A stretch of 64,000 nucleotides of DNA. Source: Verrucomicrobiaceae bacterium. Its GTDB lineage: Bacteria; Verrucomicrobiota; Verrucomicrobiia; Verrucomicrobiales; Verrucomicrobiaceae. A program made the position numbers and the translations under genes. Under the pieces are notes generated by a model. That model had not been told where the DNA came from. It saw only the letters and a program-made list of their open reading frames with translations, and did not search any database. Below are positions 22,680-25,096 of this stretch, one piece after another. The stretch covers positions 310,001 to 374,000 of the forward strand of contig JAIBCL010000003.1 in NCBI GenBank assembly GCA_019694165.1. Reading direction: 5' to 3'. The first letter of the stretch is position 1. The number at the start of each line of letters is the position of its first letter.

Positions 22680-22850
22680 GGACGGCCTCAGGGGTTACGC
22701 ATGAAATGCCTCTGTGAGTCTGGTGCTTCTGAGTTGTCCCACAAGATTCAGGATTCCACAGATGGATTCAGAAGAAGTCCAGTCCGTGGTCGTCCTGAAT
22801 CCGTGGGAATTCACTCTGAAGCAATTCATGCGTAAGCCCTGGGACGGCCT
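22680..22850. mobile_element. MITE copy 1 (element 22689-22841) with 9-bp target duplication
   Basis: The 153-bp element has terminal inverted repeats: left CAGGGGTTACGCATGAAATG, right end the complement of CAGGGCTTACGCATGAATTG (two mismatches in 20). It is flanked by a perfect 9-bp direct repeat, GGACGGCCT, at 22680-22688 and 22842-22850. No coding capacity. The CAGGG ends and duplication of 8-10 bp resemble ISAs1-type insertion sequences (from memory, not checked). It fills the 317-bp gap upstream of lpdA. Copy 2 is at 24865-25014. Confidence 0.88.
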
Positions 22851-22940
22851 GGCAGTTCTGACGCCATCTGATCGTGCATCAGCGCCGGGAATAATCCGGC
22901 GCCTTCAACCTTTGCTTCTGATCGATGCACCTCCATCCAT

Positions 22941-23250
22941 ATGGCGCTCATGAAACCGGTCATTCTGGTTCCCGTTTTCTTGTTCGCGCGCGCCCTTGCG
23001 GCGGACGGAGACGCAGGCGGCTCGCGGCAGTCTTTGAAGGCGGCTGTCGGCGACGTCTCCCAGTTGCCACCGATCGAGCGCGCCGCCTTTTCCGACGACG
23101 CCACGGCGTTCAAGCCCCTTGCGAAACCCGGCCCAAACGACTGGCTGGCGCATCACCGGGAGGAAGGCCAGACATTCGCCGAGTTCCAGGTGGACACCGG
23201 AATCCTAAGCCGCAACGATGCAGTCGGACGCATCCACGAAGGCAAGGTGC
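22941..23250 (+). pseudogene. N-terminal stub of an archaemetzincin-family zinc protease
   Basis: The frame from ATG 22941 has a signal peptide (MKPVILVPVFLFARALAADG) and then FKPLAKPGPNDWLAHHREEG-QTFAEF, the N-terminal signature of secreted bacterial archaemetzincins. Homology stops at about 23190 and the catalytic domain (HExxHxxGxxH plus CxxCxxxxC) is absent; shortly after, the hairpin array 23251-23412 begins and the frame becomes meaningless. I read it as a gene cut off by a repeat-associated rearrangement. Confidence 0.6.
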
Positions 23251-23412
23251 GAGCGCGCGGGTGTAGGCGCGCGCGGCAGAGCGCGTTGGGGACTCCGCCT
23301 CGTTCTGGCGAACGAGCCTGCGACCGCGCGTCGCCTTCGACTGCATCGTAACGGCCGAGAGTTCATCGACGTGCCGGGCACCGCACTTCGTTGTCTTCGA
23401 CAACGAAGTGAA
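23251..23412. repeat. multi-hairpin palindromic array
   Basis: Consecutive hairpins: GCGCGC-N8-GCGCGC (about 23254-23274), GGCAGAG...CTCCGCC (23275-23299), CTCGTTC-TGGC-GAACGAG (23299-23316) and a perfect 12-bp stem CACTTCGTTGTC-TTC-GACAACGAAGTG (23384-23410). No credible protein. The CTCGTTC/GAACGAG hairpin also occurs inside the element at 461-613. The rest of the gap to 23492 shows nothing recognisable. Confidence 0.7.
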
Positions 23413-23492
23413 CCGTGGAAGAAAGCGAGATTGACCTTGCCACCGCGACGGGATCGGAACTATGAATAGCCCGTCGTCAAATCCGGTCCCGC

Positions 23493-23858
23493 ATGAATCT
23501 CTCACCGACAATCTTCCGGGCATTTTGCCTCGCGGCCGCCGTCATGCCGCTGGCGTCGTGCCAGAAGAAGCAGGCACTGAAAGCCCAGGTGATCGAAGCA
23601 CGCGAAAAGCTGGAAGAATCCCGGAAAATGATGGCGGCGCTCGATGATCAGTTGCGCGTGGTGGAGAATTCCGCGCAAGCGCTGGAACGCAGTGCGAGCG
23701 GCGGGTTCCGCGAGAAACTTGAGGCGGCGGAAAAGCAGCTCAAGGAGGTCACGGCCGATTCCGCCGTCCTGAATTCAAGGATCAGGACCTTGGAGGAGAG
23801 GAACAAGTCCGTGACGGACGAGCTGAGGGAGTACGAGAACAAGTTCCAGCGAAAGTAA
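23493..23858 (+). CDS. coiled-coil lipoprotein
   Basis: 121 residues from ATG 23493. Lipoprotein signal MNLSPTIFRAFCLAAAVMPL followed by lipobox LASC, so the mature protein is expected to be membrane-anchored through Cys. The remainder (residues about 28-121) is one continuous heptad-rich coiled coil (ALKAQVIEAREKLEESRKMM ... ERNKSVTDELREYENKFQRK). No family recognised. It is 24 bp upstream of a second coiled-coil membrane protein, with which it probably forms an operon or complex. Confidence 0.7.
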   Translation: MNLSPTIFRAFCLAAAVMPLASCQKKQALKAQVIEAREKLEESRKMMAALDDQLRVVENSAQALERSASGGFREKLEAAEKQLKEVTADSAVLNSRIRTLEERNKSVTDELREYENKFQRK

Positions 23859-23882
23859 GAACCGCGAAACCGCCGCATCACG

Positions 23883-24842
23883 ATGTTTGAGGGAAAGGTC
23901 ATGGTCTGGGTGCTCGCGTTTGCGTTCGTTGTCGCTGCCGCGGGATTTGTCATCCACACGTCGGAAATCGACGAGCTTTCCCGCGAGATCAGGGAAGCTG
24001 AATTCGGGGTGCAGGAAGCCGGCCGGCTGATGGACATGAAGAAGCAGACGCTCGTGCGGCGCGAGGCGGATGTTGCGCTGGCGCGGCGTGAATTGGACAC
24101 GCTCGACGATCTCGACACGAAAATCGCGGCGGTTCTCGAAGATCGGGAAGCGGCGACGCGAAGGCTGGAGGAACTGGAGAACGCACCGGAGAAAATTCGC
24201 CAGCAGTTTGCCGATGCTGTCGCCGCCGTGCGGAAAACGGCTCTCGGCGAGAGCCTCGGCAGCGTCAAGCTTCCTTCGGGAGCCGTCTTGGAGAACACGA
24301 AGATCCAGAAGATCACGGATGCGGACATCACCCTCGCGCATGGCGGAGGGGTGACCAAGCTCCGGGCCAAGAACGCACCGCCAGAGCTGGCGGCCAGATT
24401 TCGCCTCAAGACCGAATCGGAACTGGAGGAGATGGTGAAGAAGGCTCCCGCGGCCGAAGGCGCACCTCCAGGCAATGCCAGCCCCGCTGGCAGCACCGGG
24501 ACGGCCGCGCCCGCAGGTCAGGCAAGTGACAACAGCCCCGCCGCCATTGCAGCTGCGGCAAAACGCGAAGCTCGCTTCCGGGAGATCGACAGTCGAATGG
24601 CCGAGCTGCAGGTGCAGACTGAGATCGCCGAACGCAGCAGGGACGAATGGAAAAAGCAGGCTGAAGACTACAAGAATCTGCACCGCCGGGCGCAGGCCCT
24701 CGGGCGCATCAGTTCCCATCTCATCAAGGCCAATGCCGCCACTGAACGCGCAAACCAGATTCAGACGCAGCTCGACAGCGCCAAACTGCTGATGGAAAAG
24801 CTGCGGCAGGAACGGGATGGCCTGGCCCCCAAGCCGAACTGA
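23883..24842 (+). CDS. membrane-anchored coiled-coil protein
   Basis: 319 residues from ATG 23883. One N-terminal membrane segment (VMVWVLAFAFVVAAAGFVI) is followed by a long coiled coil (about 28-115), a compact central part (LGSVKLPSGAVLENTKIQKI ... DITLAHGGGVTKLRAKNAPP) that looks like the small beta domain seen in many PVC secreted proteins whose hydrolysis or 'K-x-V-L-x-N' motif reads expression of a product, a Pro/Ala/Gly-rich linker, and a second coiled coil to the end. Role unknown; structural envelope function is an inference. With the lipoprotein it forms a cassette between the two MITEs. Confidence 0.68.
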   Translation: MFEGKVMVWVLAFAFVVAAAGFVIHTSEIDELSREIREAEFGVQEAGRLMDMKKQTLVRREADVALARRELDTLDDLDTKIAAVLEDREAATRRLEELENAPEKIRQQFADAVAAVRKTALGESLGSVKLPSGAVLENTKIQKITDADITLAHGGGVTKLRAKNAPPELAARFRLKTESELEEMVKKAPAAEGAPPGNASPAGSTGTAAPAGQASDNSPAAIAAAAKREARFREIDSRMAELQVQTEIAERSRDEWKKQAEDYKNLHRRAQALGRISSHLIKANAATERANQIQTQLDSAKLLMEKLRQERDGLAPKPN

Positions 24843-24864
24843 CCGGCTCCGGCACTGCGGTCCG

Positions 24865-25014
24865 CAGGGCTTGCGCATGAATCGAAAGCGAAAACCTCAA
24901 TTCCGTGATTTGCCCCGATTGAGGATTCCACAGATGGGTTCAGAGGACGTCCCATCCGTGGTCGTCCTGAATCTTGTGGGAATTCACTCAGAAGCAATTC
25001 ATGCGTAAGCCTTG
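24865..25014. mobile_element. MITE copy 2 with 8-9 bp target duplication
   Basis: 150-bp element with ends CAGGGCTTGCGCATGAAT and the complement of CAAGGCTTACGCATGAAT. Direct repeats GCGGTCCG at 24857-24864 and 25016-25023 flank it (the ninth base differs, T against A). Its right-hand 95 bp (from AGGATTCCACAGATGG on) are about 85 % identical to copy 1, while the left 45 bp differ. The right end lies 82 bp upstream of tgt. Confidence 0.85.
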
Positions 25015-25096
25015 AGCGGTCCGGCGGAACGAGCGGCGCGTGGTGGACACATGGGCCAATCGCGTCCAGAGTCGGGGCCTTTTTTCCCGCCCTTCC

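Follow-up and report, generated by a model that had tools for sequence, protein, structure and literature searches.

Promoter-directed insertion is described as atypical in bacteria, and the study that describes it reports it for Mutator-like transposases only (PMC3942029). The elements concerned, TnGBS/ISLre2 and ISKra4, target positions 13-17 bp upstream of sigmaA promoters, in most cases with the right repeat on the promoter side, an orientation that the authors link to the way the two repeats differ (PMC3942029). For the ISAs1 family, we found no report of promoter targeting in the open-access literature searched. Here, we describe a MITE family of a Verrucomicrobiaceae genome that appears to lie outside the TnGBS/ISLre2/ISKra4 group but to work like it. 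As in that group, many of the elements lie at a fixed distance upstream of predicted -35 boxes and are oriented, with 34 right ends versus 8 left ends at the expected distance from predicted promoters. They differ from the group, which comprises p-MULT 3 and 4, in the transposase (ISAs1 family, DDE_Tnp_1 with DDE_Tnp_1_assoc), in the gap (about 29 bp instead of 13-17 bp, as the -35 box starts at 29-31 with a mode of 30), and in being mostly MITEs. Other repeats offer a parallel: Correia, RUP, BOX, and ERIC elements are likewise short, palindromic, intergenic, present in high copy, and devoid of a transposase gene, but have other ends and other target rules, such as TA for RUP (PMC10969869, PMC3049150, PMC2229807).

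The window is a stretch of 64,000 nucleotides (G000:C61:310001-374000) from a draft genome of 7.8 Mb in 66 contigs. It holds two short elements in direct orientation, 2.2 kb apart. Copy 1 (22689..22841, plus strand, 153 bp) is flanked by a 9-bp target-site duplication, GGACGGCCT, at 22680..22688 on the left and, as an exact repeat, at 22842..22850 on the right. Copy 2 (24865..25014, plus strand, 150 bp) is flanked by the 9-bp sequences TGCGGTCCG at 24856..24864 and AGCGGTCCG at 25015..25023, with 1 mismatch between them. Both copies start with CAGGG and have terminal inverted repeats of about 18-24 bp; in a self-comparison of the window, the inverted ends match at 88% over 24 nt (I3) and 89% over 18 nt (I6). 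A preliminary description of this DNA had reported two MITEs of 153 and 150 bp with inverted CAGGG ends and flanking direct repeats, and the observation is real: both stand where it placed them. The direct repeat that it gave for copy 2 corresponds to the 8 matching bases of the full, singly mismatched duplication. Its remark that the right parts are similar and the left parts differ is borne out in the alignment, where right segments of 57 nt and 39 nt match at 89% and 95%.

The preliminary description also proposed scanning the genome for the ends and listing the flanking 9-mers. With up to 3 mismatches allowed, a right-end pattern occurs 79 times on each strand of the whole genome, whereas the reversed pattern used as a control occurs once on each. 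The family thus has many further copies, about 70 in the genome. We extracted 64 copies with their flanks; the copy at 1402 in L064 is a doubtful chance pairing and was excluded later, leaving 63. Copies are mostly 147-157 bp long, centred on 152-153 bp, and have no transposase gene and stops in most frames. A 9-bp duplication is the rule: it is exact in 31/64 copies, has one mismatch in 16/64, and two in 7/64, so that 47/64 copies have at most one mismatch. When flanks are re-paired as a control, an exact 9-bp match occurs in 0.02%. Duplication lengths of 7, 8, 10, and 11 bp show no comparable excess, with an exact match at 8 in three copies. The window repeats are therefore members of a non-autonomous MITE family with a constant 9-bp target-site duplication. 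Several copies are 98-100% identical to one another, so some of the spread is recent. Among the genomes of relatives, 0/56 carry the family, one having an end match only, and a search of the genome_contigs species collection, from which the genome itself is possibly left out, gave no exact match to the core 21-mer.

Individual copies show further rearrangements. The copy at about 1428-1669 in L098 contains a nested insertion of about 90 bp with inverted ends GGCACTGAGTTA...TAACTCAGTGCC, which may represent another small element family. In L059, a copy at 1548-1700 lacks a duplication, and about 18 bp of its host flank recur to the right of the L044 copy (1489-1641), as if the flank had travelled with the element through aberrant end use or gene conversion. 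Two tandem copies in L069 (1502-1655 and 1692-1845), 190 bp apart with similar DNA between, look like a local duplication.

The difference between the left parts of the window copies has a simple origin. The family comprises two subfamilies, A and B, that differ in both their left and right halves. Among the 63 copies, 52 are A-left/A-right, 5 are B-left/B-right, and 6 are B-left/A-right, one of these 6 being mixed further. Copy 1 belongs to the mosaic class, with a type-B left half and a type-A right half, and is 96.7% identical to another family copy on contig C32; copy 2 is of class A. The left halves of the window copies thus differ because of mosaicism between two subfamilies, which both supports and explains the earlier view that the family is diversified. 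Mosaic copies lie at different sites, each with its own duplication, so the mosaic form itself has moved.

The elements are long imperfect palindromes, with fold z-scores of -9.7 and -4.3, as would be expected of structured RNAs or REP-like elements that spread by a route other than transposition. We give this reading almost no weight: the 9-bp duplications at dozens of sites already refute it, and the ends are common to an ISAs1 element. Rfam models find no match at the gathering threshold in 22600-25120. An RNA-level role was considered separately and rejected: the antisense strand folds better in 47/50 copies, and changes in the stem are mostly not compensatory.

Two related copies in direct orientation with DNA between them could also have moved, together with that DNA, as one transposon, and the preliminary description raised this composite unit. 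A precedent exists in pairs of Tn3-derived MITEs, the TIME-COMPs, which share this arrangement of two copies around intervening DNA (PMC13367494). TIME-COMPs that have moved, however, have matching duplications outside the pair (PMC13367494), and the window pair does not. Its outer 9-mers, GGACGGCCT and AGCGGTCCG, are mismatched at 5/9 positions, while a separate duplication flanks each copy. Overall identity between the copies is only 78.5%, and they belong to different subfamilies. Their spacing is also what chance allows, as 69 copies placed at random give 1.3 expected pairs within 2.2 kb, and two are seen. Joint movement of the pair is thus very improbable, and we treat the two copies as independent insertions. 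Nor did any evidence of recombination between them come to light.

What, then, moves these elements? The preliminary description guessed at an ISAs1-type transposase, and the guess is well supported by degraded insertion sequences (ISs) with matching ends in the same genome and by ISAs1 elements of relatives with the same ends and 9-bp duplications. The genome has three ISAs1-type transposase loci (L039, L040, and L041), each with transposase sequence between ends that have 1-3 mismatches to the MITE ends. The resemblance extends over about 20 bp at the upstream end, and what MITEs and ISs have in common is limited to the terminal 17-21 bp or so. A full-length ISAs1 transposase is encoded at C31:137-1459 and matches NF033564 at 290 bits (cut-off 70) as well as PF13808/PF01609 (DDE_Tnp_1_assoc, DDE_Tnp_1). 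In this sole full-length copy (P0001), V replaces the second aspartate of the DDE triad, which all five relatives compared retain, so the protein is probably inactive. The other two loci, L039 and L040 (on C31 and C66), have the same internal deletion, which leaves a 209-aa frame; the shared deletion suggests that the deleted form itself has moved. No recognisable 9-bp duplication is found at L039-L041, and no intact transposase was found in the draft genome; the draft may lack an intact copy, or the source may be gone.

Intact-looking elements are found in related genomes. Close relatives of the transposase come from Verrucomicrobiaceae and Prosthecobacter genomes. The intact-looking ISAs1 elements have the ends CAGGGCTTACGCATGAA or versions with one to two changes. 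Exact 9-bp duplications flank L163 (CGTTCTTTC) and L165 (GCTTTGCAG), and also L225, L231, L240, L245, and L250. ISAs1 elements with both CAGGG ends and 9-bp duplications are seen in the genomes of three relatives, and G012 has several 1237-bp ISAs1 copies of this kind. Two different MITE families of other genera share these 17-bp ends and are flanked by exact duplications of 9 bp: L214/L257 (G020, 162 bp) and L230/L261 (G006, 205 bp). The window elements thus resemble ISAs1 insertion sequences (NF033564) in their CAGGG ends and 9-bp duplications and are unlike them in having no transposase gene and only the terminal 17-21 bp in common. From these likenesses, we infer that the MITE family was moved in trans by an ISAs1-family transposase.

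Nearly all copies lie between genes. To call genes, we used a home-made codon-usage caller on loci from which the element had been removed; a longest-frame test of gene disruption had no discrimination in this GC-rich genome. By these calls, 61/63 copies are intergenic, whereas random placement within these loci gives 27%. At tandem sites, where the neighbours are on the same strand, all 31 of 31 copies are co-directional with transcription; other gene-call thresholds give 34/34, 28/29, and 23/25. Pfam matches confirm both neighbour genes in the called direction at 7 of 10 sites checked. Pneumococcal repeats, in contrast, mirror coding bias only, with about 61-63% on the leading strand (PMC10969869, PMC3049150, PMC2229807).

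Near-total intergenic placement is also what selection against gene disruption would produce. Insertion could be random, with survival only of those copies that land upstream of promoters in a harmless orientation. This process should leave a broad range of distances, and the flanks show otherwise. We aligned the host DNA beyond the right ends of the 63 copies, where flanks of different copies are otherwise non-homologous. Sharp peaks emerge at T30 (41 copies), T31 (37), and G32 (36), followed by A53 and A54 (28 each) and T57 and T58 (26 and 27). The signal has the layout of a sigma70 promoter, TTG(A/C)C-16/17-TAnnnT: a -35-like TTG with, 16-17 bp beyond it, a -10-like hexamer of core TAnnnT. 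A TTG starts at 29-31 in 34/63 right flanks, against a background of 3.3% at other offsets (P 1.3e-33), and the starts peak at one base, with 26 copies at 30, 5 at 31, and 3 at 29. The same spacing is found beside autonomous ISAs1 elements in other genomes. Selection acting on random insertions is thus an improbable source of the pattern.

The signal is not confined to one end or present in every copy. Left flanks have a TTG at 29-31 in 8/63 copies (P 0.001), four copies have one at the expected distance on both sides, and 25/63 have one on neither side. Some of the latter may be decayed, depend on another sigma factor, or be off-target. The best promoter-like score falls at 28-32 in 34/63 right flanks versus 6/63 left flanks. 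With its small excess of TTG at the left end, the family has an orientation preference that is not absolute, and copy 1 of the window is among the left-end cases.

In other genomes, we collected 60 distinct outward flanks of matching ends, of which about 12 represent one conserved coding gene matched by chance. A TTG lies at 29-31 in 12/60, and position 30 is the top peak of the whole profile (P 6e-6). Among autonomous ISs, L163 has TTGACA-16-TACTTT at +30 and L164 has TTGACG at +30; the signal is at +30 for L249, at +31 for L244 and L250, and at +30 on the left for L245. It is absent from the relatives' copies L246, L247, and L258. The unrelated MITE families L214/L257 and L230/L261 both have a TTG at +30 on one side. 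Since nothing but the ends is common to ISs and MITEs, site choice by the transposase is the simplest reading. The fixed spacing across copies, together with their mostly co-directional orientation, suggests that transposases of this family home in on promoters.

Domestication of the MITEs would likewise account for a constant spacing and orientation: each would supply an upstream activating or UP-like element required to be in helical phase with the promoter, and only phased copies would have been kept. Against this, the spacing is the same for autonomous ISs and for unrelated MITE families, whose internal sequences are different. Changes in the stem also give no sign of selection on a sense-strand RNA structure, and there is no Rfam match. 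We regard domestication as a shade less plausible still than selection on random insertions.

Site choice at insertion by the transposition machinery is, in our judgement, by far the most credible account: the MITEs are very probably independent insertions made by an ISAs1-family DDE transposase with promoter-directed targeting. In this mechanism, the transposase would act on the MITEs in trans and generate the 9-bp target duplications, and the transposition machinery would be directed to sigma70-type promoters, with RNA polymerase or sigma as the likely guide. Cleavage of the target would occur upstream of the -35 box, at a distance of about 20-29 bp. If the -35 box lies near -36, the duplicated 9 bp would span roughly -65 to -57 from the transcription start, close to where the RNA polymerase footprint ends on its upstream side. 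The element would then be joined so that in most cases its right end faces the promoter. Together, these steps would explain why the spacing is fixed, why the copies lie between genes, and why they run with transcription. The promoter-like sequences, predicted by consensus, would be working promoters, and targeting would act at insertion rather than through selection.

The same mechanism would explain why the two copies bracket an interval. A predicted promoter facing lpd lies at 22632..22660 on the minus strand (-35 TTGATC at 22655-22660, 17 bp, -10 TAACTG at 22632-22637); counted outwards from the left end of copy 1, its -35 box starts at position 29. A predicted promoter facing tgt lies at 25044..25072 on the plus strand (-35 TGGACA at 25044-25049, 17 bp, -10 CAGAGT at 25067-25072), with its -35 box starting at position 30 outwards from the right end of copy 2. 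The bracketing arises because the predicted lpd and tgt promoters face outwards, with one copy ahead of each. Both are imperfect consensus matches alone, and their case rests on the family; for copy 2 only, the promoter score was compared with shuffles and was reached by 0/300. A sigma70 scan of the window interval with the strict E. coli consensus found nothing, and the promoter signal becomes visible only once the flanks of many copies are aligned.

More broadly, it is likely, though a step less secure than the account of the window family itself, that a subgroup of ISAs1 in Verrucomicrobiaceae and its MITEs target RNA polymerase-promoter complexes, an invention separate from that of the Mutator-like elements and distinguished by a spacing of 29 bp versus about 16 bp. 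If so, a second, unrelated transposase family would have the promoter habit with another spacing, which would allow a direct comparison of how promoters are found, for instance through contact with RNA polymerase or sigma. Element ends could serve as rough promoter markers in genomes that lack transcript data. Targeting would also give a simple reason why about 70 copies were reached without breaking genes.

The outer genes are divergently placed around the pair: lpd, encoding a dihydrolipoamide dehydrogenase-type flavoprotein (Pyr_redox_2, Pyr_redox_dim), on the left (21247..22623, minus strand), and tgt, encoding a queuine tRNA-ribosyltransferase and followed by yajC and secDF, on the right (25097..26236, plus strand). 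The preliminary description took the copies to bracket an accessory cassette with a truncated protease gene, a hairpin array, and two coiled-coil genes. The copies do not define a cassette, whereas most of the listed contents hold. The protease gene is a remnant of an archaemetzincin-like gene (Peptidase_M54; 22941..23205, plus strand) that retains the N-terminal 85 codons or so: within a 136-aa ORF, the first 85 or so residues match the N-terminus of such proteases. Full-length relatives (L209/L212) have the motif HExxHxxGxxHC. Both coiled-coil ORFs are present on the plus strand: one of 121 aa with a lipoprotein-like N-terminus (23493..23858), outside the element, and one of 319 aa with an N-terminal membrane segment (23883..24842). 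The latter has relatives elsewhere in Verrucomicrobiaceae, although no case next to tgt was found; in the congeneric genome G001, the genes that lie upstream of tgt are unrelated ones.

Most of the hairpin array consists of a second interspersed repeat (23206..23361, plus strand, about 155 bp), at which the protease remnant breaks off. Its copies, about 150 bp long and imperfectly inverted at their ends (AAGCCGTGATCATGCAGT...), number 4 in the genome (L174-L177, including that of the window), the others lying at C54:55594-55728, C22:23802-23923, and C21:32307-32426. The C22 copy (L176) has cut into a MITE copy.
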